Shown here piece by piece: positions 13,806-36,311 of a stretch of DNA of 47,479 nt. Every line of letters starts with the position of its first letter. Position 1 is the first letter of the stretch. The notes below the pieces were generated by a model that was not told the origin of the DNA, did not search any database, and saw only the letters and a program-made list of their open reading frames with translations. The DNA comes from Bacilli bacterium (GTDB lineage Bacteria > Bacillota_I > Bacilli_A > RF39 > UBA660). The stretch covers positions 1-47,479 of the forward strand of contig JAFRIJ010000006.1 in assembly GCA_017432825.1 (NCBI GenBank), written 5' to 3'. The position numbers and the translations under genes were made by a program.

Positions 13806-14312
13806 ATGAAAGATTTATTGTGGAGATTGGTTTTGGTTATATTTGTTATAGTAGCAGTATTTGTTACTATGTGTACACTTTCAAAGAATGATTACAACGT
13901 AATGCAATTTGGGGATAAGATTTGGTTGATATCAAATAAAAAAATGGGAAATTATCCTGAAAACAAACTTTTAATTATTAAAGAAGATAAAAAAAATGTT
14001 AAACTAAACGACGAAGTGTTTTATTATCACGAAAGTAATGATGGGAATAATGTTGAATATGGGAAAATAACTGCTATAAACAATAATAGTTATACAATAG
14101 ATAATGAAGAAATAGAAAAAAGTATGGTAATATCATCTAATAATAACATAAAAGAAGTAGCAGTATTAGGAACAATATTATCCGTATTAACTTCTAGAAC
14201 AGGTTATCTATGTTTAATAATTTTACCAATTTTATTAGCATTTGTTTATCAAATAGTACTAATAATAAAAGAATTAAACAAAGATACCAAAACATCTAAA
14301 AAAACAAAATAA
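13806..14312 (+). CDS. Degenerate SipW/S26-like signal peptidase (no catalytic dyad)
   Basis: A 168-residue protein with membrane helices near both ends (residues 5-25 and about 131-155) and a small beta domain between. The layout and the paired blocks LLIIKEDKKNVKLNDEVFYY and VLGTILSVLTS match the SipW-type signal peptidase at 18945 (MILAKK..IKVGDDVVYL). It is a paralogue of the product of 32626, which shares NDYNV...G. The Ser-Met-x-Pro and the His of the active enzyme are not present; aligned positions read Asn/Lys and Gly/Lys. I infer a non-catalytic chaperone or adaptor. The next gene starts one base after its stop with no ribosome site. GAGGT precedes ATG. Confidence 0.72.
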   Translation: MKDLLWRLVLVIFVIVAVFVTMCTLSKNDYNVMQFGDKIWLISNKKMGNYPENKLLIIKEDKKNVKLNDEVFYYHESNDGNNVEYGKITAINNNSYTIDNEEIEKSMVISSNNNIKEVAVLGTILSVLTSRTGYLCLIILPILLAFVYQIVLIIKELNKDTKTSKKTK

Positions 14313-14313
14313 A

Positions 14314-15258
14314 ATGAATAATAAAAAAATAAAAATAACAGACAGCATACCAAAAAATAGAATTTTTTTGGTATGTCTGTTATTAATATTGTTTCTAATA
14401 GGAAGTAGTTTTGGAAGATATGTATATCAAGGATTAAGAAACTTTTACTTACAAACAAAAAGGTTTTATTTTAATAGTGATAAATTAACTGAATCAGGAG
14501 CAATATTTAGAATTGAAAACTGGTCTGGTGTAGGTAGTTATTCTGTAACATTTAATATGAATAGTTTTGATAATAACATGCTAGTAAGTGATGATAATAT
14601 CGATTACACAATTGAATATAGCTGCTCAGAAGAAATAACATGCAATTTAGTAGATAGCAATACAACAAGACAGATACCTTCATCAACAAATACAGATACT
14701 TTTACAATAATAATGTCTGTACCAACTAATACAGTATTTAATAGAGGAGATTCAGTAACATTAAATGTAAAAACGACTTCAACATCGCCATACGCTAAAG
14801 AATTAACAGGAAGATTTACACTAGTAGTAGGTCATTATGGGTTAAGTCATGAAATAGAAGATTCAGCTAATAGTCCTTATTTAAATGTTAGAATAACAAA
14901 CACACTAGATTATTATACAGTTAATCAAAATATAACAGGACATAATGCAGGAACACAAATAAGTATAGAAGATTATTTAGCACTTTCTAATACTGATAAA
15001 GAAAAATGTTCTTCATCCATAATAACATTAACATATAATCCGCAAGTAGTTTTACTAGATATGACTAGTGAAGCATATCAAGAAGCCGTAAATATAACAA
15101 CACAAGTGATAAACGGTTATAATTATGTTAACTCTATATCTTTTAAAATCGATGCTTTATCCAGTAAAATGATAAAATTTTATAAAATAGATACAACGCA
15201 AAATTATACATACCCAATAGTAAATAATAGTTCAATAATAGGGGTAAGTTACAGTTAG
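14314..15258 (+). CDS. Exported TasA/SipW-substrate-like protein
   Basis: A 314-residue protein. A short basic N terminus precedes a hydrophobic signal (about residues 18-33) that ends GSSFGRYVY. This parallels the TY-S-R/K-Y exits of the other SipW-type substrates here. The rest is Ser/Thr/Asn-rich beta structure with a CSEEITC pair, and looks extracellular. There is no Shine-Dalgarno: the ATG follows the upstream stop by one base, so synthesis should depend on translation of the pseudo-peptidase gene. A long hairpin covers codons 9-23. Confidence 0.65.
   Translation: MNNKKIKITDSIPKNRIFLVCLLLILFLIGSSFGRYVYQGLRNFYLQTKRFYFNSDKLTESGAIFRIENWSGVGSYSVTFNMNSFDNNMLVSDDNIDYTIEYSCSEEITCNLVDSNTTRQIPSSTNTDTFTIIMSVPTNTVFNRGDSVTLNVKTTSTSPYAKELTGRFTLVVGHYGLSHEIEDSANSPYLNVRITNTLDYYTVNQNITGHNAGTQISIEDYLALSNTDKEKCSSSIITLTYNPQVVLLDMTSEAYQEAVNITTQVINGYNYVNSISFKIDALSSKMIKFYKIDTTQNYTYPIVNNSSIIGVSYS
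14337..14381 (+). promoter_or_regulatory. Strong hairpin inside the start of the exported-protein gene
   Basis: AACAGACA-GC-TACCAAAAAA-type left arm (14337-14357) pairs with TTTTTTGGTATGTCTGTT (14364-14381). Only the GC dinucleotide is bulged and the loop is about five bases. It resembles an attenuator or a translational block at codons 9-23. Confidence 0.6.
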
Positions 15259-15269
15259 CAGGTGATATT

Positions 15270-16238
15270 TTGAGTATAAACGTTATAAAAGAATATGCTG
15301 AATTTTCTAAAAAAAGTATAAGTAAATATTATGAATTAATAATGGGTAAATTCTACGATAAAAACTTAGTAGATAAGTTTTTAAATGAATATATAAACAT
15401 AAGGTACTACGATTTAGATACTGATAAATATAGCAGAAATATTACTAAAATAAATAAAAAATTAAACGAAGTATATAATAATATTGAAGAAAAACAAAAA
15501 GAAGCAAAATTTATCCATATCATGTTTGATATAATGTTATATTTGGATGATGTATTAGAAATAGATAATATAGAAAATATATTTAGCTTAATAAATCAAA
15601 TAAGAAAAGAAAAACTAGGTATTAACGAAAAAGATTTTATTTCAAAATTTAAAGAAAATTATGAAAAAAATATAGAGAGAAAAAACAAATTTATTGAATC
15701 AATTACCTGTGAAGAATTTCCGGTAGAATATGACTATATTTATGAACAAGACGTTTATAACGTAACAATAACACACGATATAGCCATACCAAAACTATAT
15801 AGTAAATTTGCTATAGATAAAGTATTCAACGACGGATTAATAGCGGAAGATAAATTGTTTATAGAATATTATATTGTAAGTAATAAAATATTAAATAACA
15901 TAATTAAAGGTGATTATAATAATAAATACTTATTAGAATTTAACCTAAATATTTTAAAGAAAAAAGATAAGTTATCCAGATTATTAAATATTATAGATAA
16001 CGATCTAACTAAAGATGTAACAAGCATGAAACTAGAATATAAAGGTTTTATTGCTAATAAAGAAAAAATATATGAATTAATAAAAGAAGGATTTAAATTT
16101 TCTATTATAATAGACAATACTTATGATAATGTAGAAAAAATAGAAACAGATTTATTTAAAGTATTTGAATATATAATAATAAATAATAAAGAGAAATATA
16201 AAGAATTTGATGACTATAATAATATAATTAGTTATTAA
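15270..16238 (+). CDS. Hypothetical cytoplasmic helical protein
   Basis: A 322-residue, Lys/Glu/Asn/Ile-rich protein without signal or membrane segments, predicted mainly helical. It begins at a TTG (15270) supported by AGGTGAT six bases upstream. Gaps of 11 and 12 bases separate it from the neighbours, so it belongs to the same operon as the SipW and McrB-like genes. A conserved-looking middle region is EYDYIYEQDVYNVTITHDIA. No family recognised; a cytosolic partner of the AAA+ ATPase is a guess from position. Confidence 0.75.
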   Translation: MSINVIKEYAEFSKKSISKYYELIMGKFYDKNLVDKFLNEYINIRYYDLDTDKYSRNITKINKKLNEVYNNIEEKQKEAKFIHIMFDIMLYLDDVLEIDNIENIFSLINQIRKEKLGINEKDFISKFKENYEKNIERKNKFIESITCEEFPVEYDYIYEQDVYNVTITHDIAIPKLYSKFAIDKVFNDGLIAEDKLFIEYYIVSNKILNNIIKGDYNNKYLLEFNLNILKKKDKLSRLLNIIDNDLTKDVTSMKLEYKGFIANKEKIYELIKEGFKFSIIIDNTYDNVEKIETDLFKVFEYIIINNKEKYKEFDDYNNIISY

Positions 16239-16250
16239 GTGGGTGATTAA

Positions 16251-17780
16251 ATGGATACATACATGAGATTTTTATACGAATTTCTATCCCAGTTTTTTAA
16301 AGGAATAGAATTAGCAATTGTTGGGATTTTTAATGGAATAAAACAAATATTTAACATTAAAGGATATGCCAAAGTAGTAGAATTTTATAGAGAAGATTTT
16401 AACGGACCAGAATGGGTATTTGTTCTAATTGCCATAATCCTAATAGCTCTTTTATTAGGACTAATTATATTCTTAGCAGTTTTTTTAATAAGAAAGTATA
16501 TTAGATTTAGGAAAACGATTGTAGAACAAGAAGAATTATTAAATGAAGTATCCGATCTTAATAATGAAGTATCATCATTACTAAAAGAAAAAGAAGATAT
16601 ACTTGCAATGAAAGTTTCACATCTTGGATTAAAACCAGGAGAAAGTGAAACTGAAGAATCATCTAGTGATGCAAAAGATGATGCAGTAGCAGATGGCGAA
16701 GGTATAAGATTCCCTAAACTACATTTGCTAGATGAAGAATTTGAGGGATATAAAGTAGTTAATTATGGCAATACGTTTAGTTTACCAGAATTAGTTGATA
16801 ATTTTAGAAACTTTGCTGCATCACAATTAAAATTATATTATAAAGAAGAAATGATAAGATTATTTATATCAGCTTTAGCATCAACAAAACTAGTTATCTT
16901 ACAAGGTATTTCTGGTACCGGTAAAACATCCTTAGCATATGCATGGGGAAAATTTTTAAAACATGACTCCTGCGTCGCATCGGTACAACCCTCATGGCGT
17001 GATCGTACTGAATTGTTCGGTTATTTTAATGAGTTTACTAAAAAATTTAATGAAACAGAAGTATTAAAAGAAATGTATTTAGCAGGTTATACTGATGATG
17101 TTTATACAGTAATATTGGATGAAATGAACATCTCTCGTGTTGAGTATTATTTTGCCGAAATGTTATCAATACTAGAGATGCCTAATAAAGATGAATGGAT
17201 AGTAGAATTAGTTAGTGCGCCTTGGAAATCAGATCCTAAACACATAGTCGATGGTAAATTAAGAATACCACCTAATATGTGGTATATAGGAACAATAAAT
17301 AACGATGATTCAACATTCATGGTAACAGATAAGGTGTATGACCGTGCTATGCCTATAGATATAAATGATAAAGGACAAGTATTTGAACCAAAAGATATAC
17401 CGGCTCAAGATATAAATTATACATACTTAGATCAAAAATTCCAAGAAGCAATTGCAGCAAACCCAGTAACTCAAGACACACTAGATAAAATAGAAAAAAT
17501 GGATGATTACGTAATTCAACATTTTAGAATTGCTTTTGGTAACCGTATCGTAGCACACATGAAAAAATTTGTACCAGTATATGTTGCATGTGGTGGTGAC
17601 GAAGTCGATGGTGTAGACTACTTTTTAGCAAGAAAAGTATTAAGAAAATTTGAACAATTAAATGTATCATATATAAGAGACGAAATAGATGGATATATAG
17701 ATTTCTTAGATCAAACATTTGGAAAAGGAAAAATGAAAGAGTGTGAAGAATACTTATTAAGACTTAAGAAATTAACATAA
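16251..17780 (+). CDS. Membrane-anchored McrB-like AAA+ ATPase
   Basis: A 509-residue protein. The N terminus is hydrophobic, with a clear membrane helix at about residues 56-82, then a coiled-coil-like Glu-rich linker. The AAA+ core resembles McrB/dynein-related ATPases: Walker A GISGTGKTS (residues 219-227), Walker B VILDEMN (about 287-293) and sensor 1 IGTINNDDS (about 346). A likely arginine finger sits in VYDRAMPI (about 364). Classical McrB is soluble and has an N-terminal DNA-recognition domain; here a membrane anchor takes its place. The gene lies 15 bases before a DUF2357-like gene, as in McrBC-like pairs. The membrane anchor and the SipW neighbours suggest work at the cell surface rather than restriction. 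Confidence 0.85.
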   Translation: MDTYMRFLYEFLSQFFKGIELAIVGIFNGIKQIFNIKGYAKVVEFYREDFNGPEWVFVLIAIILIALLLGLIIFLAVFLIRKYIRFRKTIVEQEELLNEVSDLNNEVSSLLKEKEDILAMKVSHLGLKPGESETEESSSDAKDDAVADGEGIRFPKLHLLDEEFEGYKVVNYGNTFSLPELVDNFRNFAASQLKLYYKEEMIRLFISALASTKLVILQGISGTGKTSLAYAWGKFLKHDSCVASVQPSWRDRTELFGYFNEFTKKFNETEVLKEMYLAGYTDDVYTVILDEMNISRVEYYFAEMLSILEMPNKDEWIVELVSAPWKSDPKHIVDGKLRIPPNMWYIGTINNDDSTFMVTDKVYDRAMPIDINDKGQVFEPKDIPAQDINYTYLDQKFQEAIAANPVTQDTLDKIEKMDDYVIQHFRIAFGNRIVAHMKKFVPVYVACGGDEVDGVDYFLARKVLRKFEQLNVSYIRDEIDGYIDFLDQTFGKGKMKECEEYLLRLKKLT

Positions 17781-17795
17781 TAGGAGTGTATCAAA

Positions 17796-18932
17796 ATGGA
17801 TAGATTAAAAATATTAGATTTATATAATAATTCATCAGATAAAACCAAAGAAAAATTTGCAAGTAAAGTAGATTCAACATTAGAAGTAAAACTAGATTAT
17901 GACAAAGTAGATTGCGATTATGAATGGTTAGATATTATGGAAGATACAATTAGATACCTTGATAATATCTTAAGAAACCCCAATCGTTTTATTGTTAATG
18001 AAGAAGAAGTAATAAAAATAGAATTAGCAAGAAGAGTAACCGTTGAAAGTATAAAGCATTTATCTAGAAATACTAATCTAATCCAGGATTATGATAAGGA
18101 AACAGGAGATGTTAAACCTTCTAAAATACTAAATATAAATAAAGAAGAAAGCTTTAATACATATGAAAATAGATTTATTTATAGTTTAATTCAAAATATG
18201 AAATCATTTATTGCAAGAAAAAAATCAATGAATCAAACTACAGACTCATCTACTTTAAAGGATAATAAATTATTAAATTATAGTGCTAAAACAAAAGTAG
18301 GAGAAGAGGAAGTTAATATAAGCATGCAACTAGATTCAAAAATAAATAATAATAATCCTATAAAAGATGAATCAGGATTATCTATAAATGATAGAATAGA
18401 GAAGTTAGAATTACAAATTGCAGATTTAACAAATTCAGATGTATATAAAAATCTAGCTAAACTACATGTAGCTTTAGTAACATCGCCTATAAAAAAGACA
18501 AATGTTATTCTTAAAAATGTTAATTTCCAATATGCAGTAAAACTTTGGAATTATATGCAAGAAAATATAGATGGCAAAAATAAAAGAATTCAAGATAATA
18601 GAACATATAAAGATACAGGAGAATTAAAAAATTATATAGATGAATCATTTTTATTAAATTATTTAGCAATGGATACACTAAATAAAAAAACAACAACAGA
18701 AGAAGAAAAAAAAGAAATTAAAGAAGAAGCAAGCCAAAGAATAGTTAGTACTATGTTAGATCAAATGCTAACGATAGATGAAAATCTAACGGAAGATGAA
18801 TTAAAAAATATTGTTATAAAGCAATATGAAGTAATTAAATATAAAAATATAACAAATATAAAATCATTATACAATATCTTTAATAAGCAGATAGATAAAT
18901 ATTTAAATAAATTTAATAATCTAAAAATATAA
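17796..18932 (+). CDS. DUF2357-like partner of the McrB-like ATPase
   Basis: A 378-residue soluble protein. ESFNTYENRFIYSLIQNMK (about residues 118-136) is the characteristic DUF2357 motif found in proteins encoded next to McrB-like ATPases, where it normally precedes a PD-(D/E)xK nuclease. I see no PD-(D/E)xK pattern in the remaining part, which is helical and Lys/Glu-rich. So this may be the ATPase-binding part without the nuclease. TAGGAGTG precedes the ATG. It is followed 12 bases later by sipW. Confidence 0.72.
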   Translation: MDRLKILDLYNNSSDKTKEKFASKVDSTLEVKLDYDKVDCDYEWLDIMEDTIRYLDNILRNPNRFIVNEEEVIKIELARRVTVESIKHLSRNTNLIQDYDKETGDVKPSKILNINKEESFNTYENRFIYSLIQNMKSFIARKKSMNQTTDSSTLKDNKLLNYSAKTKVGEEEVNISMQLDSKINNNNPIKDESGLSINDRIEKLELQIADLTNSDVYKNLAKLHVALVTSPIKKTNVILKNVNFQYAVKLWNYMQENIDGKNKRIQDNRTYKDTGELKNYIDESFLLNYLAMDTLNKKTTTEEEKKEIKEEASQRIVSTMLDQMLTIDENLTEDELKNIVIKQYEVIKYKNITNIKSLYNIFNKQIDKYLNKFNNLKI

Positions 18933-18944
18933 AGTGGTGATAGT

Positions 18945-19502
18945 ATGATAAATAAAATAAAGAATAATAAACCATTAAAAATAATTACATCAATAGTAAA
19001 ATTTATAATATCAATAATTATTATTTTAGTAGTAGCAGTTATTATAGTACAAAGAGTAACAAATAATAAATTAAACTTAGGTGGATATGGATTATATACA
19101 GTAGTAACAACCAGTATGGTACCTAAATATAATGTAGGAGACATGATTCTCGCTAAAAAAGTAGATACGAATACAATTAAAGTAGGAGATGATGTTGTAT
19201 ATTTAGGGGAAGTAGATACATATAAAGATAAAATTATAACCCACCAAGTAATTCAAATAGAAAATACCAATGAAGGAAAAATATTTCATACTAAAGGTAT
19301 AGCAAATCCATTAGAAGATCCAGTTGTAAAAGAAAGTCAAATATATGGAGTAGTAGTATTTAAATCAGCAATATTAAGCTTTTTATCAGGACTAATTAAT
19401 AGTCCATATGGATTTTATTTCCTAATATTTGTACCAATAGTATTAATAGTATTTTTAGAAGTAATAGACGTAATAGGGGCTAGAAAAAAGAAACAGGGGT
19501 GA
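18945..19502 (+). CDS. sipW: SipW-type signal peptidase I
   Basis: A membrane signal peptidase of the archaeal/ER-like S26B branch, 185 residues. It has helices near the N terminus (residues 11-33) and C terminus (about 150-172). The catalytic Ser lies in TTSMVPKYNVGDMI (near residue 57) and the catalytic His in IITHQV (near residue 100), the Ser-His dyad of SipW rather than Ser-Lys. In Bacillus, SipW releases TasA and TapA to form matrix fibres; the exported proteins around it are the likely substrates. The TGA stop overlaps the ribosome site of the next gene. Confidence 0.93.
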   Translation: MINKIKNNKPLKIITSIVKFIISIIIILVVAVIIVQRVTNNKLNLGGYGLYTVVTTSMVPKYNVGDMILAKKVDTNTIKVGDDVVYLGEVDTYKDKIITHQVIQIENTNEGKIFHTKGIANPLEDPVVKESQIYGVVVFKSAILSFLSGLINSPYGFYFLIFVPIVLIVFLEVIDVIGARKKKQG

Positions 19503-19507
19503 TATTA

Positions 19508-20176
19508 ATGGAGGAAAAAGAATCCTTATTAAAAACCATCTTTAAAGTAATAAAAAGAAGATTTAAAATATGGCATTTACTTTTCTTTGCCTTATTAATA
19601 TCGGTAAATACTTACGCTTGGTTTATTTATATGAACAAAGTATCTAGTGATATTTCTGTTAGAGTAAAATCCTGGAATGTATCTTTTCAGTTCAACAACC
19701 AAACAATGACAGACTACGTTAATTTTGATGTTGAAGAAATATATCCTGGAATGGAAACAAGAACACAGTCACTAAAAGTATCAAATGATGGAGAAACAGA
19801 TGCTCAGCTAAGTTATGAAGTAGTATATGCTAATATTTTTGGTACGGAATATGACACAGGAGAAATAACAATGACTCCAGAAGAATTAACCAATAAACTA
19901 GCTAATGATTACCCATTTAAAATAACGTTATCATCGACAAATAACATATTATCAAGAAATGGAACTAATGAATTTTTTACCGTACAAATAGTATGGCCAT
20001 ATGAAACTACATCCAATGGAGTATTACAAGATGATCAAGATACATATTGGGGAAATTTAGCATATACGTTTCAAGAACAAAACCCTGGTATACCATGTAT
20101 ACAAATAAGAGTGAAAATAACAGCAATTCAAATACAAAATCAAGAAAGTCAAAATACAGAACCTGCAAGTCCATAA
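19508..20176 (+). CDS. TasA/camelysin-like exported protein with NTYAWF exit
   Basis: A 222-residue protein with a basic N terminus, a hydrophobic signal (about residues 20-35) and NTYAWF at its end, typical of SipW-processed matrix proteins. The mature part starts VRVKSWNVSFQFNN, shares the W-x-x-x-x-NN pattern with the products at 20198 and 33161, and includes a YPGM turn. GTG 19499 is in frame but lies inside GGGGTGAT, so ATG 19508 is used. The gene ends the SipW operon and faces a terminator. Confidence 0.82.
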   Translation: MEEKESLLKTIFKVIKRRFKIWHLLFFALLISVNTYAWFIYMNKVSSDISVRVKSWNVSFQFNNQTMTDYVNFDVEEIYPGMETRTQSLKVSNDGETDAQLSYEVVYANIFGTEYDTGEITMTPEELTNKLANDYPFKITLSSTNNILSRNGTNEFFTVQIVWPYETTSNGVLQDDQDTYWGNLAYTFQEQNPGIPCIQIRVKITAIQIQNQESQNTEPASP

Positions 20177-20200
20177 AAAAAAGAACCAGGTTCTTTTTTA
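20177..20200. terminator. Bidirectional terminator at the end of the SipW operon
   Basis: AAAAAAGAAC (20177-20186) and GTTCTTTTTT with a CAG loop, shared by the convergent genes at 19508 and 20198. Confidence 0.85.
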
Positions 20201-20857
20201 TGGTTCATTATTATCTGGTTCATTATTTTGTACTGGGGTATTTGCTAACTGAACAAAAGTAACATTAACATTTAACAAAGCTCTATTACTACTATTTTTA
20301 GTAGCATCAGTATCGTCATCATTATCCATTTCTGCCCCGTTAGTACTATCATCATTCCACATAAAATATATTCTTAATGAAACATCTTTATCTACATCAT
20401 TATATAAAATTGAATCAGTAATAGATAATTGGCCATTAGCACTCGATACTGTTTGCCTAGTACCACCATCTATAGAATAACCAGATAAAATTAAATCGCT
20501 AACAGCACTATTAACATTGTCACTAGTAGTAATTGTATAACTAAATGAAACATCAGTACCAGTACCATCTATTAAAATATCAAAATATCCTTCAGCAGTA
20601 GGAGCAATAACACCAGAAGCAATATTACTATTTCCTGGAAAAACAGGTTCAATAACAGAAGAAAAATTACTATTATTAACAATATCTTGATTGTTTACAG
20701 CTAAATTCCATCTAGCAACCCTAACACTAGCATTTCCACTTGTACCAGTAACGTATTTAGAATATGTATATGTAAGCACACCAATACCCACACAAGATAG
20801 AACGGCACCTACAATAATAAATACTTTTTCTATCCCAAATTTATATAAAAACTTCAT
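20198..20857 (-). CDS. TasA/camelysin-like exported protein (minus strand)
   Basis: A 219-residue protein with a signal helix (about residues 11-31) that ends LTYTYSKYVTG. The mature start has VRVARWNLAVNNQD, closely matching SVRVKSWNV in the product at 19508 and LATWEIKVNNTD in that at 33161. It ends with an Asp/Asn/Pro-rich tail. It is the only gene of this family on the minus strand and has its own promoter placed back to back with the promoter of 20964. GGGAGGT precedes the ATG. Probably a SipW substrate and matrix subunit. Confidence 0.85.
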   Translation of the reverse strand: MKFLYKFGIEKVFIIVGAVLSCVGIGVLTYTYSKYVTGTSGNASVRVARWNLAVNNQDIVNNSNFSSVIEPVFPGNSNIASGVIAPTAEGYFDILIDGTGTDVSFSYTITTSDNVNSAVSDLILSGYSIDGGTRQTVSSANGQLSITDSILYNDVDKDVSLRIYFMWNDDSTNGAEMDNDDDTDATKNSSNRALLNVNVTFVQLANTPVQNNEPDNNEP

Positions 20858-20879
20858 AAATACCTCCCGTATTTCCTAA

Positions 20880-20908
20880 ATTATATCATAATTAATATTC
20901 AATATCAA
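20880..20908 (-). promoter_or_regulatory. Promoter for the minus-strand TasA-like gene
   Basis: Minus strand: TTGATA (20908-20903), 17-base spacer, TATAAT (20885-20880). Confidence 0.75.
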
Positions 20909-20914
20909 TTATTA

Positions 20915-20943
20915 TTGCATATAAAAATTTAATGTGCTAAAAT
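20915..20943 (+). promoter_or_regulatory. Promoter for the operon at 20964
   Basis: TTGCAT (20915-20920), 17-base spacer, TAAAAT (20938-20943). Its -35 lies only six bases from the -35 of the divergent minus-strand promoter. Confidence 0.72.
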
Positions 20944-20963
20944 TATTATAGTAGGTGAGAGAT

Positions 20964-21668: not shown

Positions 21669-21675
21669 GTGAATT

Positions 21676-22724: not shown

Positions 22725-22784
22725 CTTTTAATAATTAACATATTATGATATAATTAAAATAATGGATAGTAAGGCGGTGATTCT

Positions 22785-28700: not shown

Positions 28701-30836
28701 ATGTATTCTCCACAATATGATTCAGGAGATGAAGTTCCAAGTTCAGAGCTATACTATTTCTCAAGTGGTAGTTATGTAGTAGGAAAGCATAAATCAAATC
28801 ACGATTATTACGTAGATGGTTTCTATACTAACTACGTTAACGAAGATGGAGAAACAATAAAAACAGATTACATAATTCCAACACCAGATAATGCAACATT
28901 CTATCGTTGGGTAGTAGGAGAACAAGTAGATAATATAGAATTTACTCTTACAGCATCTAAGTACTCAACACTAGGTACATATGAATTACAACTATTAGAT
29001 TATTATGAACCAAACACAGAAATAGATATAATTGGTGTAAATTTTGATGGATTAAATAGTAATATTAACCTATTACAATCGCACCAAATTCCAAGACATG
29101 CTGCATCGACAACTGATGCTAATAAAAACTTTGGATTACAAATGGAAACGGGTACAACAGCATGGATTACGGAAGGTAATACTCAATTCCTAACAACAGG
29201 ATCAAGAGATATAGTTGGAACTACAATATATAAAAGTGAAAACTCAAATGCAATACCAAGTTTTATCTTCTATTTGCATCATTCTAAAAACCTAGATATA
29301 ACACAAGATTTAGGATTTGTAACAATATCATTAATGATAGTAACACCAATAAATGATTTAAGTAATAAAATTCAAAGAATAAATATTGTAGCTAATTTAA
29401 AAACAGTATTATATGAAGGAGATTATTATGAAGCTACTATAACTCCAGGACCTAAGTATCAAATGTTTGCTAATAATGCAGTTAATATAACTAATAGGAG
29501 TACATTTAGTGCCTATTATTCATTGTATTCAGCAAGTGCAACTACAATTTATCAAACAGGTGATTATAGAACTCTAGTATCAAGCTATGCATTACCAGAA
29601 AACACAAAAATAACCATGATAGATCTTGCAACATCAGGTAATCCCGACTATTATTATTACGTAATTAATCAAGCTGATTATAATGCAAGTATTCAAGAGT
29701 TACAAACACAAGGTGAAATAAGTTACAAATTGTCAAAATTTATAAAAATGGATAGCTCGAGCCCGGGTAATATATATAACGATGCAGCTGCAAACAATAG
29801 ATATTATGATTCAGTAAATCATGTAGCAGAAGAAGAATTTATCTTTATCATTGATCTTAAAGATACAAATCTAAATGCAGATGTTATAGATCAATCATTA
29901 TTATTTGAATTAAGAAAACCAAGTACTAGTAAGATAATGCCAGTACTTGATGTTGAACAAGTAAGAATGAGATATAACCTATATAATAATAAAGGTGGCA
30001 TAATTAACTTAAATGCAAGTTTAAGTAATACTAATTTATATATAGGAAAATCAACAAATTTAAATGTAATAACTGATTTTGCACAACAACAGATAAATGA
30101 TACCAAAATAATTGATACCAATTTCTATGATCAAAAACTAGGTATAAAAATAACCATATTAGATTCTAATAATAATATAGTTAACGGTGTTAGCCTTTTA
30201 GGTTTAAACTATGAATATAATGGTGTAACGTATTACCCTAGAGTAGATGGAACAACTAGATTTAATATAGCAGAAAGAGTAGCTAATGTATCATCTAGAA
30301 TAAAAATAAATGCTCAAAATGCTAATATAGCAACAGGTAACTATAAAATAAAAATAGATACGTTTGGATCATCTGACGGAATATATTATGGATTGGAATC
30401 ATCAAGACAAGAAATATTAAATATTAGAATAGTAAATGAAATATATGGATTAGAAGTAGATTTAGCAGATAATGATGTTTTGATTGATTACAAAACAGGA
30501 AAAAGTCAGGATGGAGATAACAACCTAAGATTTAATGTTAAATATTCATCTGGATTAACATCTCCAACAATAAGATTAGCTGTATTAAGAAGAACATATG
30601 ATTCAGTATTTAATTACACATACACATTATTTGACTATACAGAAATATTTAGTACTGAATTACAAAGTAGTGGAAATCAACATGAATATATAGTAGCACC
30701 AATTCCAAATAGTGAAAATTTATTAACACTAACAACAAAAGATAATCTAAAAACAGGAACATATAGATTAGAATTTAGATTATATGATTATGATACATAT
30801 ATAGGAAGTGCTTATAGAGATATAATAATAGAATAA
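22785..30836 (+). CDS. Giant surface protein with about 38 solenoid repeats
   Basis: A protein of 2683 residues. The N-terminal signal/anchor (about residues 18-38) ends FTTTYSRVVNT, like the SipW-type exits of its neighbours. Residues 40-480 are Tyr/Asn/Thr-rich with a few Cys (WVCNP, TKCPTSW). Residues 480-735 look like a parallel beta-helix lead-in. From about 739 to 1818, roughly 38 copies of a 20-30-residue unit with the core (V/A)(Y/F)GG(G/S)N follow. The remaining 850 residues are mixed beta domains without Gly-rich repeats, and no LPXTG or other sorting signal is present. I read it as a long adhesin-like or scaffold fibre. It is monocistronic; GGCGGTGAT precedes the ATG. Function is not known. 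Confidence 0.88.
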   Translation: MNISKKIGKFVKDNKIELRALFCLVIALLLAISIEIFTTTYSRVVNTASTSRIEGNTAYIDDLTADSNYLEGLNYTEIRSTSIPSGASTGYYDDANLVRVELTYDGRDYNNSNLVGAVSPINNENVNKYVYYKYYPLERNSNGTLATDSNNHNYIHIELIDNPFSKRPYVNSVEYGFNGWVCNPDSSTTSGLCNSISFKYSKADYTRYMDVPVTGGSQIKVHLNASWIPADVVTTAGDISDFNSMTMVPAPSHIETETITHYYNYRWKNNYTTMEFQRTYVNSDGNMPNGYYYKTSESSTTYTRIRNSNTKCPTSWFSTTTCYVYEPNTAGITANSIYDGSSIHIFPSFNNNNTVYATNITGYNATYMNKVEEAGGSITETETINKNVSDLEEGTTVGGYYYKVSNPTAAMLNTKEYYTSNGTLCTSTSSCTTAYKLIQYEDVRTNTDGTSIYYIHKGNDNLVIDQDNYYYLVTRDLNIFRYTSTTRLNMSNFEVNRPFTVTGTAINGTTTSGVLSLNGYDFTAANDIVIENIKIYGPNTSGTENIAAGNDSKTNNVIYANSHNLKIGRNVTSSRADNYLVAESILSGTTSALSGTFKVIVESGKYYSYHSGTMNGSSNYTFNQTTILGNDYDRIIPENKSKLKFLIGLDGYTGGRYTAGSDSLFASYTVFKSGLYGYNDDGTPNNDTTAGMYIGGYNGLIVNSLTGVKIEGGDISYATGGYGYNGGETTNATYIGMSGGTIRSIYGGAGYSTTKGNRIINVTGGTVSYSILGGSDSFSSSSTTDGVVNGDTLIYVGGTAYVGGGTDTVQGVEAGSVFGAGGGNTSSTQKGTVSNSHIIINGGTIANSVYGGGNYGSTGTQSSSAATTKIDIYAGTIGNVFGGSKSAGFSKSNYAGTSTIDINVMGGTIGNVYGGSNTKGDVYGSIDIDITGGNITNNVYGGGQGSQTVVSNNIDITIGTQGGGSTTPTIGGSVYGGSALGTVNGAAGCTTVSSSNTHVIVNSGTNANIFGGGQGDANDSAIPRVCGNVTVDINGGTNTNIYGGNDLKGTPNGRVTVSINGGTNTSAYAGGNQTTVTEPYINVTGGTTTNAFGGGNNATVTTSHITVSGGTVTNAYGGGNNAGVTTSNMSLTGGTVTNAYGGGNNAGVTTTNVTLNGSSCTKVFGGSNASGNVTTSNVTCTSGSATSVYGGNNQGGTTATTNVIVNGGTITNAFGGGEKTNVTTKANVTINGNTSYVYGGSNTSGTVTETNVRLNGSATDVYGGNNLGGTSTTTLVTVAGNATNVYGGGNQATTTTSTINYNSGTVTNVYGGGNQAGVTTTNVNLGSGSITNVFGGSNTSGNVTTTNVTTVTSASNLTVSNVFGGNNQGGTTTTSHVTLSRGTINNVYGGGERAGTNATNVTINGATINQTVFGGGDNAQVTTDTSVNITNNSRIIGNVFGGGNNGAVLGNTVVNTNSSTIDSNVYGGGNQADVEGTTTVTIANNSLIKQSVFGGGNVGEVDSETTVEINNSTVKQNVYGGGNQATVNDDTNVTINNSTTIEGNVYGGGNAGEVEGITNVEVNNATVEQNVYGGGNLASANDDTNVIINNSAAIEGNVYGGGNAAAVEASTNVTVDSATIEGNIFGGGNNGMVFEGTIVKVKNATILESVYAGGNGATAIVMGDTLLNIEGTTSVTHHVFGGGNAAATGCAQDIEDIGGNVIAICTNPSNSSSEVNIAGATIGGNVYGGANTSVLYGETTVNIGKDVTPQAYNLTKGNITINGTVFGGGEANASGSEDYDYSFISVTKGININIDANGHNTYLINGSIFGSGNASSSGGYSYIYIKNYGNSTNYKSNISIQRTDIVTLDNSAIKLSGATDRTNKYKAELFTFSRIGELKLKNNSTVYLEKGANLLESLSSLKDQNNSEVYETVTINENTGVVTKNVDNRVYMIEGKNLNISDDESLGSYGDVNGMAFFGMFTLDRNGNVATAMYSPQYDSGDEVPSSELYYFSSGSYVVGKHKSNHDYYVDGFYTNYVNEDGETIKTDYIIPTPDNATFYRWVVGEQVDNIEFTLTASKYSTLGTYELQLLDYYEPNTEIDIIGVNFDGLNSNINLLQSHQIPRHAASTTDANKNFGLQMETGTTAWITEGNTQFLTTGSRDIVGTTIYKSENSNAIPSFIFYLHHSKNLDITQDLGFVTISLMIVTPINDLSNKIQRINIVANLKTVLYEGDYYEATITPGPKYQMFANNAVNITNRSTFSAYYSLYSASATTIYQTGDYRTLVSSYALPENTKITMIDLATSGNPDYYYYVINQADYNASIQELQTQGEISYKLSKFIKMDSSSPGNIYNDAAANNRYYDSVNHVAEEEFIFIIDLKDTNLNADVIDQSLLFELRKPSTSKIMPVLDVEQVRMRYNLYNNKGGIINLNASLSNTNLYIGKSTNLNVITDFAQQQINDTKIIDTNFYDQKLGIKITILDSNNNIVNGVSLLGLNYEYNGVTYYPRVDGTTRFNIAERVANVSSRIKINAQNANIATGNYKIKIDTFGSSDGIYYGLESSRQEILNIRIVNEIYGLEVDLADNDVLIDYKTGKSQDGDNNLRFNVKYSSGLTSPTIRLAVLRRTYDSVFNYTYTLFDYTEIFSTELQSSGNQHEYIVAPIPNSENLLTLTTKDNLKTGTYRLEFRLYDYDTYIGSAYRDIIIE
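25000..28240 (+). repeat. In-frame VYGGGN solenoid repeats
   Basis: I count about 38 copies of (V/A)(Y/F)(G/A)GG/S-type units, such as GGTVTNAYGGGNNAG and ATVEQNVYGGGN. Spacing is 20-35 residues and is tighter (20-27) from about 25990 on. Many units have TTxNVTxN between the Gly blocks. At DNA level the repeats are diverged, with different codons, so they are old or selected to vary. Confidence 0.85.
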
Positions 30837-30862
30837 GAAGTATAAAAACTACTTCTTATTCT
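30830..30862 (+). terminator. Hairpin after the giant gene
   Basis: AGAATAAGAAGTA (30830-30842) and TACTTCTTATTCT (30850-30862) form a perfect 13-bp stem with a short loop. No clear T-run follows, so termination may be partial. Confidence 0.6.
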
Positions 30863-30873
30863 AAATTATATAG

Positions 30874-30902
30874 TAGACTTTAAAGAAAAAATTAGATATA
30901 AT
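30874..30902 (+). promoter_or_regulatory. Promoter for the 30926/31035 pair
   Basis: TAGACT (30874-30879), 17-base spacer, TATAAT (30897-30902). Confidence 0.6.
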
Positions 30903-30925
30903 TATCTTAATAGGGTGGTGATAAA

Positions 30926-31042
30926 ATGAATAATATTGATGTAAAAAATCTATCATATGAGGAACTGTTACGAATAAATAAAACAGTAAATGAATTTATT
31001 AGCTATTTAGAAAAAGAAAAGGAAACGATAGATAATGAATAA
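30926..31042 (+). CDS. 38-residue helical mini-protein
   Basis: AGGGTGGTGAT precedes ATG 30926. The product has an acidic and basic helix pattern (LSYEELLRINKTVNEFISYL) with a Glu/Lys-rich end, and no membrane segment. The stop overlaps the next start by eight bases, so the two proteins are probably made together. It may be a small subunit that binds the coiled-coil protein. No family recognised. Confidence 0.7.
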   Translation: MNNIDVKNLSYEELLRINKTVNEFISYLEKEKETIDNE

Positions 31043-32573
31043 TGAATTAGAAACAAGAATAAATTCAATTAAAGAAGCTATGGGAAACATGCCAAAGAAC
31101 AATGTAAAAAATAAAAATAAGTATAAAGAATACATTGAAAGTCTATTAATTGAATTAACAGAATTAAAAGAAAAAATAAATAAAGAAATAAATGATAGAT
31201 ATCAAAGTATTATTACCAAAAGCAAAAATAACAATGAATTAGATGTAGATCCAAGAATAGAAAAATACAAGGAATATATAAATTTATCTAATATTTATAA
31301 CACACCGTATGAAAAAAGCAAACTAGATAGAATAATAGACGAAATAAAAAGATTCAATCAAGATGATTTAAACAAGGTCAATGAAGATATAAAAAAAAGT
31401 ATAGAAATTTTCAATATAGTAGGAGTAAGATTAACTAAAGATAGCTTTAATTATTCAATCTACGTTAATAAATATATGTCTCTATTTTTAGAAGAATTAA
31501 AAAATAATAATTTAGAAATAGAAAAATTAAAAAGATGCTTTGAAGAAATATACTGGAAGTGTCCAGATCTAATAACAGAAATAGCATTTAATCTAAGCAA
31601 TTTATATTATCAAAACAAAAAATTATTTGATAAATATTACAATAATGAGAAAAATAAATTATTAAATGAATTAAACCTAACAGCAAAAGAAATATATAAT
31701 AACATAAAAGAATCTACAAAAAAAAATTATTTAAATGAAAAAAACAATCTAAATAATATAGTAAATAACTTTATTAATAAAATATATAATATAAATGATT
31801 TTAGCCAAGATAAAATAAGTAATTATTATAACCAAATAGGAAGTAAAGAAGGTAATATAGAAATAGTTGATAATTTACTTACTACATTAAAAGAATATAA
31901 ATATTATAAAGAATATACTTATATAATTGATGATATAAAGAATATATATAAAGAAAAAGCAAAATATAAAGACATATTTAAAAATAAATTAAAAGAAATA
32001 AATAAAGCAAATAGTAAAATAATTGGATTAACCAAAAAGTATTTTTCAAAGGAAAAAAGCAAATTTTTTAATAATAAAGATAAATTAGAAAAAATATTAT
32101 TAGATAGTGAAAATGAAATCATTAATATAAAGAAATCATACGAAGAGTTAGAATTGGATAAATTTAATGAATTAATTTTTACCTTAAATGATTCAATTTC
32201 ATTATATGATTTACTTAAAATAGCAAGTTCTTATTTTATTTATCTAAAGAATTTAATAGAAAAATTAAATGAAGGAATATCTATTGAAGAAACAAATAAA
32301 AAAATAGAAGAATTAGAAATGTTTGTTAATAGTTTTGATATAAATATAATAAGTAATATTAGTATAAATGAAGAAAGAGATATACCTACAATAATCAGTG
32401 ATAAATACAAATTATTAGGAATAAATATAACAAGTGACGCTATAGAAAATAGTTTAGATACAACAATAGAAACATTAGAAAAAATATTATTAAAAAATGT
32501 TATAGATAAAAGTAGCATAAAATATGAAGATATTGAATTTCTATGTAATTCAAATGAAATAATTAACAAATAA
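31035..32573 (+). CDS. Large cytoplasmic coiled-coil protein of unknown function
   Basis: A 512-residue Lys/Glu/Asn/Ile-rich protein with no signal or membrane helix. Long helical heptad-like stretches fill most of it, with a likely globular part around residues 130-190 (VGVRLTKDSFNYSIYVNKY, CFEEIYWKCPDL). The start overlaps the end of the preceding mini-gene; AAGGAA lies a little far upstream. It is flanked by the giant protein and the second pseudo-peptidase gene. A cytosolic scaffold for the surface system is possible but not shown. Confidence 0.75.
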   Translation: MNNELETRINSIKEAMGNMPKNNVKNKNKYKEYIESLLIELTELKEKINKEINDRYQSIITKSKNNNELDVDPRIEKYKEYINLSNIYNTPYEKSKLDRIIDEIKRFNQDDLNKVNEDIKKSIEIFNIVGVRLTKDSFNYSIYVNKYMSLFLEELKNNNLEIEKLKRCFEEIYWKCPDLITEIAFNLSNLYYQNKKLFDKYYNNEKNKLLNELNLTAKEIYNNIKESTKKNYLNEKNNLNNIVNNFINKIYNINDFSQDKISNYYNQIGSKEGNIEIVDNLLTTLKEYKYYKEYTYIIDDIKNIYKEKAKYKDIFKNKLKEINKANSKIIGLTKKYFSKEKSKFFNNKDKLEKILLDSENEIINIKKSYEELELDKFNELIFTLNDSISLYDLLKIASSYFIYLKNLIEKLNEGISIEETNKKIEELEMFVNSFDINIISNISINEERDIPTIISDKYKLLGINITSDAIENSLDTTIETLEKILLKNVIDKSSIKYEDIEFLCNSNEIINK

Positions 32574-32576
32574 TAA

Positions 32577-32605
32577 TTGCACTTAAAAATATAATATGAT
32601 ATACT
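32577..32605 (+). promoter_or_regulatory. Promoter for the operon at 32626
   Basis: TTGCAC (32577-32582), 17-base spacer, TATACT (32600-32605), with a TATGA extended element. Confidence 0.65.
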
Positions 32606-32625
32606 TTAAAATAGAAGGTGGTAAG

Positions 32626-33156
32626 ATGAAAGGATTTTTAAAATTCTTCGGGGGTATTATGGTAACAATTTATTTAATAATAGTTATTATTTTAACAGTA
32701 TTTATGTTAAATTTTAACGATTATAATGTTACTGTACTTGGAAATAAAACATATATTTTGATGACAGACGAGAAACTTGAAGGGTACAAAAAAGGGGATT
32801 TATTAGTTGTTGAAAAAAAATCAAATGACGAGATAAATATAGGAGATATGATCTTTTTCTATGAAACTGACACAGTAAAAAAAGAAGTAAACATAAATTT
32901 AGGAAAAGTAATAAATAAGCGAAGAATTACTGATACAGAAACAACATTCACAATGGAAGGAAATGTAGATTTTTCAAGCGAATACGTAATAGGATCAACA
33001 AAAGATACAAAAGCTTATAACGGAATAGGTGGAGTATTATCAGTACTAGAATCAAGATGGGTATTCTTATTACTAGTTGTATTACCAATATTGTTCATAT
33101 TCTTATATGAAATATACGCTATTGCATTAGAAGTAAAAAAACAATTAAAAAACTAA
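32626..33156 (+). CDS. Second degenerate SipW/S26-like signal peptidase
   Basis: A 176-residue paralogue of the product of 13806. Both have helices at both ends, NDYNV near the first helix, a GDLLVVEK...INIGDMIFFY beta block that aligns with GDMILAKK...IKVGDDVVYL of the active SipW, and GVLSVLESR before the last helix. The Ser of the catalytic box is replaced (region reads LMTDEKLEGYKKGDLL) and the ITHQV His is replaced within INLGKVIN. The gene is followed four bases after its stop by an exported protein with no ribosome site, as in the first copy. ATG 32626 follows GGTGG; an in-frame upstream ATG at 32596 is less likely. Confidence 0.75.
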   Translation: MKGFLKFFGGIMVTIYLIIVIILTVFMLNFNDYNVTVLGNKTYILMTDEKLEGYKKGDLLVVEKKSNDEINIGDMIFFYETDTVKKEVNINLGKVINKRRITDTETTFTMEGNVDFSSEYVIGSTKDTKAYNGIGGVLSVLESRWVFLLLVVLPILFIFLYEIYAIALEVKKQLKN

Positions 33157-33160
33157 ATAA

Positions 33161-33808
33161 ATGAATAAAAAAATATTATTAATTATTATATGCTTAATAT
33201 CTGTATCTATATTAACTTTTGTTACAATAAAAACATATGCCTTATTTGAAAGTAGAGCAAGTGGAGAAGCATCATCCAAACTAGCAACGTGGGAAATTAA
33301 GGTTAACAATACTGATATAACAAGACTAACACAAGCAAATAGAAATTTTAATCTTGGGCAAATAAGTTGGAGTAACGGCAATCATGTTAAACCAGGAAAA
33401 GGAGCACCAGGAAGCATAGGGACACTAAATATAAGTATTGTACCAACAGATACTGAAGTATCATTTACTTATGAGCTTACCTTTGATTTAAGCAATTTAG
33501 ATAATACAGAATTTCAAATATATCAAATAAGAGAAACAAATGGAGATACAATAATAAGAACTGGCGAAAATAGTTATACAGGTATAGCATATCTTAATGA
33601 TATTGAAAATGATAGAGAATATGACATAGAAGTACAATTTGTATGGAATAATAGTGCAGAAAATGATGATAATGATTATAGATTAGGATCAAGATCAAAC
33701 GAAAATATTGAAATCCCAATAACATTTAGAGTAATGCAATATACGGGCGAAACGATAGAAGAATATCAAGAAAATAATGAAGAAGAAAATAACGAAGAAT
33801 CAGGATAG
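33161..33808 (+). CDS. TasA/camelysin-like exported protein with KTYALF exit
   Basis: A 215-residue protein. The signal helix (about residues 4-24) ends IKTYALFESRASG. The mature start SSKLATWEIKVNNTDI matches the products at 19508 and 20198, and it has a WNNSAENDDNDY block like WNDDSTNGAEMDNDDD of 20198. The tail is Glu/Asn-rich. No Shine-Dalgarno precedes the ATG; it depends on the upstream pseudo-peptidase reading frame. Its 3' end overlaps the next gene by 32 bases. Confidence 0.82.
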   Translation: MNKKILLIIICLISVSILTFVTIKTYALFESRASGEASSKLATWEIKVNNTDITRLTQANRNFNLGQISWSNGNHVKPGKGAPGSIGTLNISIVPTDTEVSFTYELTFDLSNLDNTEFQIYQIRETNGDTIIRTGENSYTGIAYLNDIENDREYDIEVQFVWNNSAENDDNDYRLGSRSNENIEIPITFRVMQYTGETIEEYQENNEEENNEESG

Positions 33809-34940
33809 TTTAAGTAGAAAAATATCAAGAATACTAATATTGATAATAATATTAATATTAGTATTTATAACGTATAGTTTCATTAAAACAAAATATTATA
33901 AAAAGGGATATACTTCTATCTTTGGTTATGCATATTTTATAGTTGATAGTGGCAGTATGTCGCCAAAGATTAAAAAAAATGATTTAATAATAGTAAAAGA
34001 AAAAAGTAAATATAAAGAAAAAGATATAATTACATATAAAGAAAATAATAATTATATTACACACAGAATAACTAGAATAGATGATAATAGATTAGTAACA
34101 AAAGGAGACGCTAATAATAATCTAGATCAAGTAGTATATAAAAAAGATGTAATAGGGAAATTAGCATTAATAATTCCAAGCGGAGGATTAATAAAAAAAA
34201 TATTTGTGTTACCAAAAGTACTAATTATATTACTAATGACATTATTAATAATAAGCATAACCATTTCGTACAAAACTAAAAATGTTAGATCTAAAGTAAA
34301 AAAACCTATTAAAGGATTAAATCCTAATATATACATAAAAAAAGATATAACAAAAAATATAGATAAAAAAAGATTCAAAGGAATGCTTAAGGTAGATTTA
34401 TTAGTTATAATATTATTATTACTAATAAGTAGTATTCCAATTACATTATCTAGGTATGATTCATTAGCCATAGGTAAAACTAGCACAAATATTGCTTTTT
34501 ACTTATTAAAGCCAGATTATGTAACAAACAACATAAAATTAACAACACTAACACCAAGCGATACACCATATGTATATACATTTTCAATAAGCAATTATGA
34601 TGCTGTATCAACAAGTGAAGTTGATTTAGAGTATACATTAAAAATAGTAACTACAACAAATCTACCACTAACATATAAATTGTATAAAAATGAAGATTAT
34701 ACATCTAATTCATCAACTAACTTAGTAACAAATAATAATACAACAATAGAACAAGATGATGATGGGACATATTTCAAATATATAACATTAAATAAAGAAG
34801 AAATGTATTATACGACACCGCAAAAAAACAACTACACACTTTTAATATACTATACAAGAGAAAGTGCAAATGCTAAATATCAAAACACGATAGAAAGCAT
34901 AAGGATAATAATTGATTCAAATCAAATAGTGGATACATAA
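33777..34940 (+). CDS. SipW-type peptidase fused to a TasA-like substrate domain
   Basis: A 387-residue fusion. The N-terminal half is an S26B signal peptidase: a membrane helix (about residues 15-36), catalytic Ser in VDSGSMSPKIKKNDLI (near residue 60), His in YITHRIT (near residue 96), then TKGDANNNLD and a helix around 140-165. After a basic linker comes a second signal-like helix (about 206-224) that ends ITLSRYDSLAIG. This is followed by an extracellular beta domain of about 160 residues resembling the other matrix proteins (LEYTLKI, LLIYYTRESANAKYQNT). So enzyme and substrate are in one chain. The start lies inside the previous gene with a weak ribosome site. Confidence 0.85.
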   Translation: MKKKITKNQDSLSRKISRILILIIILILVFITYSFIKTKYYKKGYTSIFGYAYFIVDSGSMSPKIKKNDLIIVKEKSKYKEKDIITYKENNNYITHRITRIDDNRLVTKGDANNNLDQVVYKKDVIGKLALIIPSGGLIKKIFVLPKVLIILLMTLLIISITISYKTKNVRSKVKKPIKGLNPNIYIKKDITKNIDKKRFKGMLKVDLLVIILLLLISSIPITLSRYDSLAIGKTSTNIAFYLLKPDYVTNNIKLTTLTPSDTPYVYTFSISNYDAVSTSEVDLEYTLKIVTTTNLPLTYKLYKNEDYTSNSSTNLVTNNNTTIEQDDDGTYFKYITLNKEEMYYTTPQKNNYTLLIYYTRESANAKYQNTIESIRIIIDSNQIVDT

Positions 34941-34956
34941 AAAAATTAAAAAAATA

Positions 34957-34985
34957 TTGCATTCTAAAAAATAATATGTTATATT
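34957..34985 (+). promoter_or_regulatory. Promoter for the large subunit gene at 35040
   Basis: TTGCAT (34957-34962), 17-base spacer, TATATT (34980-34985) with TATG extension. Confidence 0.65.
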
Positions 34986-35039
34986 ATATATATAGAGTAG
35001 AAGAGGGTTAGTTGATAAATAAAAATAAGGAGAGAAGTT

Positions 35040-36311
35040 ATGGACGAAAAAGAATTAAATAATGAAGCAGTTGTGGGAGAAAACGTTAGTGAGGTAAATA
35101 GTCAACAAACAGAGCAAGTTGAAAGAAACGTAATTCCACCAACTGAAACGCCTAAGGAAGAAAAGCCAAAAAACAAAAGAAGAATATTACTATTATTACT
35201 GCTACTAATTGCAACTGGATTTTTATTAACAACTACAACATATGCGTGGTTTACATCAAATAGAACAGTAACAGTAGGAGATATTGATGTAAATGTTGCT
35301 ACTAGTGGTGGTATTCAAATATCAGTAGATGGTGCTAACTGGAAATCATTAGTTTCAACAGCAGAATTAAACGCTGCAAATACAACATATGCTGCAGCTA
35401 CTAATCAAATACCAGCAACATCATCAGCATTACAGCCTGTATCTACAGCATTGACATCTTTAACAAAAGATACAACAACACTTGAAGATCCTGAAAATTC
35501 AGAATCTCCATTACTTGATAAAAGAAATGATAATGGGTATTTGTCAATGTGGCATGGAATTGTAGAATCAAATACTGGTGGACAATATATTTTAACAACT
35601 AATGATATAAGTAATGTAACACATACACAATCATCAGGATATTTTGTATGTTTTGATTTGTTCTTTAAAGTAGATGCTGAAACGGCAGCAGAAACAACTG
35701 GAACACAAAAACAAATATATTTAACAACTACATCAGATGTAATTGCAAATGGATCAGATTCAGGAATTAAAAATGCAGCTCGTGTTGCATTTATAAAAGA
35801 AGGAGCAGCAGAAAGTGGTACTGATTTAGCAACTATACAAGCATTAAAAACAACTACAGTAACGGATAATATAGTATTATGGGAACCAAACTACGATAAA
35901 CATACATCAAGTGGTGTAAATAATGCAGTGAATGTATATGGTGTAACTCCAAGTACAATAAGTACAGACACAACAGAAAGTGGGAAGAATGCAGCATTAC
36001 CTTACTCAGGAGTAATATCAAAAGTAACAGCAACTGATAACATTACTTTAGGAAGTGCAACAGCAGCACTACATTCAACACAATTTGCAGCAGTTCCTCC
36101 AACAGGAGTAACAATGTTTAGAACTAAAGAAGATTGGACAACAGCTGCTAGTGGAACATATGAGACAATATTTACTTTAGGAGCAAATCAAATAACAAAA
36201 ATGAAGATTTACTTCTGGGTTGAAGGACAAGACGTAGACTGTGAAAATAATGCATCAGGAGGAGCAATTACATTAAAATTACAATTTAGCTTAAATAGTC
36301 AAGCAGAATAA
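35040..36311 (+). CDS. Large TYAWF-type surface subunit, possible major subunit
   Basis: A 423-residue paralogue of the 21676 product. A Glu/Pro/Lys-rich cytosolic leader (residues 1-48) precedes the signal helix that ends TTTTYAWFTSNR. The mature part has GDIDVNVATSGGIQIS, WEPNYDKHTSSG with VYGVT, and the end FWVEGQDVDCEN. It is monocistronic with its own promoter, a strong AAGGAGAG site and a strong terminator. The sequence uses Ala and Thr codons more evenly than its neighbours, which may point to high expression. SipW processing is inferred. Confidence 0.86.
   Translation: MDEKELNNEAVVGENVSEVNSQQTEQVERNVIPPTETPKEEKPKNKRRILLLLLLLIATGFLLTTTTYAWFTSNRTVTVGDIDVNVATSGGIQISVDGANWKSLVSTAELNAANTTYAAATNQIPATSSALQPVSTALTSLTKDTTTLEDPENSESPLLDKRNDNGYLSMWHGIVESNTGGQYILTTNDISNVTHTQSSGYFVCFDLFFKVDAETAAETTGTQKQIYLTTTSDVIANGSDSGIKNAARVAFIKEGAAESGTDLATIQALKTTTVTDNIVLWEPNYDKHTSSGVNNAVNVYGVTPSTISTDTTESGKNAALPYSGVISKVTATDNITLGSATAALHSTQFAAVPPTGVTMFRTKEDWTTAASGTYETIFTLGANQITKMKIYFWVEGQDVDCENNASGGAITLKLQFSLNSQAE

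Follow-up and report, generated by a model that had tools for sequence, protein, structure and literature searches.

A gene block joining SipW-type signal peptidases to a membrane-anchored McrB-type AAA+ protein: a candidate surface-fibre system of the CoCoPALM kind

SipW-type signal peptidases process TasA-type exported fibre proteins, which carry an aromatic residue at the P2′ position (PMC10269814, PMC13082335, PMC7395162), and such fibres are thought to require little more than SipW and a helper. A second relevant system is CoCoPALM, named by Bell, Makarova, Koonin and co-workers (eLife 2024, PMC11090510) in a few sentences that defer the details: an NxD-type McrB GTPase fused to an FtsB-like transmembrane (TM)/coiled coil, with a DUF2357 partner, a signal peptidase and, as a guess, a role in pilus assembly. 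Here we describe a gene block at positions 13806–36311 of the 47,479-base stretch that opens contig C1 (hereafter, the window) in the 1.16 Mb, 17-contig genome of a gut bacterium of the Bacilli. All genes that an earlier, sequence-only reading had listed in this block are present as open reading frames. We think it rather probable that the block is a dedicated biogenesis system for surface fibres or adhesins, of the CoCoPALM kind and run by an AAA–DUF2357 motor.

The block shares with the tapA-sipW-tasA operon of Bacillus subtilis, the sipW-tasA/calY genes of Bacillus cereus and the sipW-bsaA genes of Clostridium perfringens a SipW with a Ser–His dyad and exported proteins with an aromatic P2′ residue. 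It differs from these matrix operons in its McrB-like motor, its DUF2357 protein and its dead SipW copies, none of which is reported there, and its exported proteins fall outside the camelysin/TasA Pfam model. It resembles CoCoPALM in gene content: the AAA+ protein has a TM N terminus and an McrB-type domain with NxD followed by a further D (D or E being usual there), a DUF2357 McrC homologue adjoins it, and a SipW adjoins in turn. The window fits every CoCoPALM feature that could be checked, the FtsB-like part weakly, and we therefore regard it as a variant of this named, uncharacterised kind. The sequence-only reading had called the system undescribed; the combination of McrB, TM/coiled coil and signal peptidase, with pilus assembly guessed, had already been named (PMC11090510). 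Substrates, a giant protein, dead peptidases and EAL proteins do not feature in the main text of that paper; what is new here is the full anatomy, the EAL proteins adjoining the motor and a pseudo-peptidase that is fixed in the window's clade.

An McrB-type AAA+ protein and its DUF2357 partner

The AAA+ protein (509 aa, 16251–17780; like all block genes but one, on the forward strand) has McrB as its nearest solved protein in a PDB search (E 2e-6), and its Walker A and B motifs, N350, D352, D353 and the arginine finger R365 are invariant in 16 homologues. Its N350-x-D352-D353 stretch (motif N-N-D-D) constitutes the NxD signature; the HMMER alignment to Escherichia coli McrB is ungapped at this point, and the deletion itself is not visible there. 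One strong N-terminal TM helix lies near residues 59–80, and an FtsL-like stretch at residues 64–116 is matched below model cut-offs by TIGR02209 (E 0.002) and PF04999 (E 0.03). The adjoining protein (378 aa, 17796–18932) matches the DUF2357 family, the McrC N-domain (PF09823, E 5e-14), and carries a conserved YENRFIY..LI block. Pfam matched no nuclease domain on it, although a degenerate nuclease fold could escape detection, and the longer DUF2357 proteins of relatives gave only DUF2357 and POLO-box matches in Pfam, with neither PilZ nor nuclease; a PDB sequence search with the DUF2357 alignment found no meaningful match. The membrane-anchored McrB-like ATPase and the DUF2357-like partner proposed from the sequence are thus both borne out.

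Upstream of the AAA+ gene, and adjoining it in the window's clade, lies U15270 (15270–16238), which encodes a 322-aa cytoplasmic protein found in 68 of 77 loci. It has no Pfam match, and profile comparison rejected it as a relative of the DUF2357 protein or of the 31035 protein described below (probability 0.1).

The AAA+ and DUF2357 domains are homologous to those of McrBC type IV restriction, and a membrane-tethered anti-phage system of McrBC descent, sitting with surface proteins or using them as receptor decoys or sensors, is an alternative that we consider improbable. It would account for two protein families that belong to restriction systems, for a patchy spread of the sort often seen with defence genes (12 genomes of the window's own family have the AAA+ gene and many others listed lack it) and for the match of the PADLOC-DB defence-candidate model PDC-M26A to 16251–17780 (E 2e-33). 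That model, however, is a candidate label from 2023, not a test, and we could not trace it to a described system in the literature searched. The window also differs from McrBC type IV restriction in its membrane anchor, its exported partners and the lack of any nuclease or DNA-binding domain found; no PD-(D/E)xK or HEPN nuclease of the McrBC or CoCoNuT type was matched in or beside the McrC homologue, and Pfam/TIGR-type profile searches matched no nuclease, HEPN, methylase or toxin family in the block. Its constant partners are instead SipW and exported proteins, joined elsewhere by EAL proteins. The PADLOC match makes a defence role possible, gene content gives it no support, and should PDC-M26A be founded on this AAA family, its defence label may be wrong.

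Co-option from restriction has a precedent in PcdA of Staphylococcus aureus, an McrB-family protein that has taken on a cell-envelope task in cell division (PMC10602043). PcdA has lost its McrC partner and active site, whereas the AAA+ protein of the window keeps both its motifs and its partner.

Linkage of the motor genes to SipW and exported proteins

The seven genes from 13806 to 20176 run head to tail, with spacings of a few bases or overlaps, and the AAA+, DUF2357 and SipW (18945–19502) genes are packed as in an operon, with gaps of 12–16 bp. Homologues of the block's genes recur in about 75 loci and the tested flanking genes (RarA, VWA, TelA and others) do not, so that the cluster is more than chance and the block limits of 13806–36311 are upheld. 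The AAA+ gene is carried by 76 loci in the named genome collection. The nearest named relatives of the window are uncultured Bacilli, 'Tenericutes' and 'Clostridia' metagenome-assembled genomes, several of rumen or other gut origin.

The loci were retrieved through the AAA+ gene, and every linkage count is therefore conditional on it. Flanks are readable for 99 AAA+ copies, and the neighbours include DUF2357 in 93, a SipW-like gene in 84 and a TasA-like gene in 80; among the 78 closer copies with readable flanks, most of which belong to the window's own clade, these numbers are 76, 77 and 77, in each case with gene models for the neighbour counts built from the same loci. TIGR02228 independently marks SipW beside the motor in other families (G051:C5:23808, G119:C1:429152 and G201:C2:40167). 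By profile, 105 of 296 Bacilli genomes have the AAA family, as do 21 of 291 genomes of a second, Clostridia-like class around a 'Eubacteriales' metagenome-assembled genome. Counted by genome, AAA and SipW occur together: of the 296 Bacilli genomes, which are related to each other and not independent, 100 have both, 5 AAA only, 102 SipW only and 89 neither. In wider loci the usual order is U20955–TasL–SipW–AAA–DUF2357–SipW–exported proteins, and synteny shows the same order in other Bacilli families and in the second class. The gene set thus stays together in distant species, across many Bacilli families and the Clostridia-like class. As the sequence-only reading had supposed, the pair is integral to a SipW/TasA-like block rather than a resident of an adjoining defence island, and the AAA+ and DUF2357 genes do not occur mainly in such islands.

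More distant AAA–DUF2357 pairs that lack SipW adjoin EAL proteins (L131) or giant exported proteins, the latter with matches to adhesin-type domains (MBG, AgI/II C2) or to a transglutaminase. Exported proteins, not nucleases, are what the SipW-containing and SipW-lacking subtypes have in common. Two particular arrangements were seen: an AAA–DUF2357–AAA order with giant exported proteins (MBG, AgI/II, transglutaminase) and no SipW (L133, L134, L135, L146, L149 and L151), and an AAA protein of about 600 aa with several TM helices and a SipW-like protein upstream (L136, L139, L140 and L141), in L136 with an ABC transporter downstream.

Signal peptidases, their degenerate copies and candidate substrates

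The SipW at 18945–19502 matches TIGR02228 above its curated cut-off (E 9e-22), and the SipW half of a fusion protein (33777–34940), whose exported domain carries the site TLSRY after a later TM helix, also passes that cut-off (E 3e-21). In both, the catalytic columns are occupied by Ser and His, and the downstream SipW orthologue has both residues in 70 of 70 copies of the window's clade. One canonical SipW and a SipW–substrate fusion had been proposed, and both are present; with its Ser and His kept, the fusion's SipW half looks like a second active peptidase and not a degenerate one. The fusion occurs in four loci (L013, L014, L033 and L155) and is split into two separate genes in 39, an arrangement that points to a functional tie between the peptidase and the substrate-like domain.

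The two pseudo-SipW proteins, pS1 (168 aa, two TM helices; 13806–14312) and pS2 (32596–33156), form one family that is homologous to SipW (hhalign profile comparison, probability 98.9, E 1.1e-17). The Ser/His columns read K/G in pS1 and E/G in pS2, and none of 60 homologues of the family has the catalytic His. Judged by these columns, a pseudo-peptidase is fixed in the window's clade. Outside that clade both SipW genes usually retain Ser and His, and dead SipWs were accordingly dropped as a general part of the system; the degenerate proteases of the sequence-only reading hold for this clade and are not a general feature.

Candidate substrates were recognised by an N-terminal TM helix followed by [ST]x[ASG]x[FY]. 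Six proteins of the block fit this SipW-type site, and outside the block there is one weak match only, at 38601. The six are a 314-aa protein (14314–15258, SFGRY; homologues in 67 of 77 loci), the proteins of 19499–20176 (TYAWF; [ST]xAWF in 55 of 68 homologues), 20198–20857 (TYSKY; such a site in 55 of 64 homologues) and 33161–33808 (TYALF; 65 of 77 loci), TasL (21676–22710, TYAWF) and a second TasL-type protein (35040–36311, TYAWF; 42% identity to TasL where aligned). Residues Y43, A44, W45 and F46 of TasL are invariant in 26 homologues; TasA, a protein cleaved by SipW, has an aromatic P2′ residue (PMC10269814). The gene at 20198–20857 lies on the reverse strand, and nearly all of the related loci listed share this opposite orientation inside the block.

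A further protein (20955–21668) is a membrane-anchored TasA-like domain in which the SipW-type site is missing, as it is in 61 of 67 homologues, and is a candidate base or anchor subunit. It shares with TasL a C-terminal EGxDxDC motif, which reads EGQDVDC in TasL. AlphaFold2 (AF2) models of the two reach pLDDT values of 87 (20955 protein) and 86 (TasL). The 20955 model matches the TasA fibre structure 8aur (Foldseek E 1.1e-3, prob 0.97; VIA, Z 6.1), with glycosidase beta-sandwiches scoring as high as TasA. TasL matches a Sulfolobus 0406 filament, FimA and TasA at Z of about 5 (8aur, Z 4.8). No solved full-length relative of TasL was convincing, and a PDB sequence search with the TasL alignment gave no meaningful match. 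The modelled folds of both proteins are consistent with fibre subunits, which is not proof that they are such. At least six TasA/camelysin-type exported proteins had been claimed: six with a SipW-type site are there, none matches the camelysin/TasA Pfam model at E 0.1, a match to TIGR04088 is weak (E 0.034), and the likeness to the TasA fold is weak to moderate.

The largest candidate substrate, outside the six, is a 2683-aa exported repeat protein (22785–30836) with an N-terminal TM helix followed by TYSRV, a candidate giant adhesin. It contains 21 [VIA][YFM][GA]GG[NSDE] motifs between residues 849 and 1770, mostly 24–29 aa apart. These GGN-type repeats would suit the putative solenoid suggested earlier. 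Giant exported proteins are also found in related loci.

EAL proteins and a proposed mechanism

Many lineages have EAL-domain proteins, some with a degenerate GGDEF domain, next to the motor. This was counted in 20 genomes whose loci had been collected before the EAL genes came to attention: of their 89 EAL genes, 31 are no more than 10 kb away from the motor, where 1.5 would be expected, and this proximity is seen in 18 of the 20. The second class, looked at afterwards, repeats the pattern: 7 of 9 loci have EAL beside the motor, and G485 and G421 each have their sole EAL gene there. The window's genome has no GGDEF match. In the literature searched no paper ties SipW to DUF2357, and, by their titles and abstracts, papers on SipW, EAL and cyclic di-GMP (c-di-GMP) do not have such a cluster as their subject.

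These EAL proteins bear on a further alternative, unlikely in our view, in which the AAA–DUF2357 pair would be no assembly motor but a c-di-GMP-read gate on the retention or release of giant adhesins, coupled to processing by the two SipWs. The pair would then work like LapD/LapG, a logic that is Gram-negative. In favour of such a gate are motor-linked EAL proteins in which no GGDEF motif is recognisable, giant exported proteins in both SipW-containing and SipW-lacking subtypes, and two peptidases flanking the motor in other clades. Many of the motor-linked EAL domains, however, retain the EAL motif and may be plain phosphodiesterases, the receptor-type interaction is hypothetical, and EAL is absent from the four genomes of the window's family tested.

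Our best reading of the block is an NTP-driven, membrane-anchored machine that would assemble, anchor or release a SipW-processed surface fibre or adhesin. What sequence establishes is which genes are present and conserved, which catalytic residues and cleavage-site motifs they encode, and the EAL linkage; that a fibre forms, that the AAA+ protein assembles into a ring and acts as a motor, that dead peptidases bind substrates and that c-di-GMP exerts control are inferred. Several TasA-like subunits, and probably the giant repeat protein as well, would be matured by SipW-type peptidases at the aromatic-P2′ site, and the uncleaved 20955 protein may serve as the fibre's anchor or cap in the membrane. 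The McrB-type protein would form an AAA+ ring held by its N-terminal helix, with the DUF2357 protein as putative NTPase activator, and NTP hydrolysis on the cytoplasmic side would drive or gate the steps by which these subunits, held in the membrane, are assembled, anchored or released. The dead SipW copies of the window's clade may bind substrates but leave them uncut, and the EAL proteins whose genes adjoin the motor in most other lineages may set the switch through c-di-GMP. That all these parts belong to one design, with a restriction-derived, membrane-anchored McrB–DUF2357 NTPase as engine or gate of a Gram-positive fibre or adhesin machine, paired SipWs processing TasA-like subunits under c-di-GMP and dead SipWs holding substrates in one clade, is a tentative proposal to which we give less than an even chance.

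The larger assembly apparatus suggested by the sequence-only reading agrees with this best reading, in which the fibre itself is predicted. The joining of a restriction-derived motor to the export machinery for TasA-like proteins points to the reuse of an old defence motor in building or controlling surface fibres. If so, a conserved restriction-derived NTPase in two classes would mean that some TasA-type fibres are actively assembled or released, and that a defence module has been turned to cell-surface work. The c-di-GMP linkage would give a concrete handle on the named, unstudied CoCoPALM class, and the fixed dead peptidases would be a clear case for a non-catalytic role of a signal peptidase.

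Several observations weigh against this picture. Descriptions of SipW/TasA-type fibres in Bacillus and C. perfringens include no such motor (PMC7395162, PMC13082335), and the same genome holds two more SipW loci without AAA or DUF2357, L179 (G000:C16:64001-76291) and L180 (G000:C17:10001-30000), with SipW proteins of 380–415 aa and exported proteins with GATFAFF/GATFAYF-type sites. The motor is thus dispensable for SipW export and polymerisation in general and would serve the system of this block. SipW genes without the AAA are common, in 102 of 296 Bacilli genomes and also in this one; taken as worded, this is the first of two observations that the sequence-only reading had named as refuting it. 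Some related AAA/DUF2357 pairs, those of L131, L133, L134, L146 and L149–L151, are without SipW. The fold matches of TasL are weak (best Z 5.0), the fibre, NTPase activity and interactions are read from genes, and no EAL protein was found in the four genomes of the window's family tested, so that c-di-GMP control there cannot run through EAL proteins.

The AAA-free loci of this genome, together with the co-option of McrB-family proteins to unrelated jobs, as with PcdA in cell division (PMC10602043), would also suit an ordinary biofilm-matrix locus with which the AAA–DUF2357 pair is co-inherited as a housekeeping or membrane quality-control factor of no specific role. We regard this as very unlikely, since a linkage that is near-constant in the closer copies (77 of 78) and extends to distant lineages is hard to explain without a functional tie.

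Among the remaining genes of the block, 31035–32573 encodes a 512-aa cytoplasmic protein that is found in 25 of 77 loci and has no family match. Its GC content is 17.8%, compared with 32.7% for the giant gene at 22785–30836 and about 24% for the flanks. Outside the block, positions 36989–43208 of the window encode a VWA and a solute-binding protein, a Halogen_Hydrol-family protein, TelA and an AAA protein, and positions 7475–8038 a small collagen-repeat protein whose C-terminal domain is of the BclA type.

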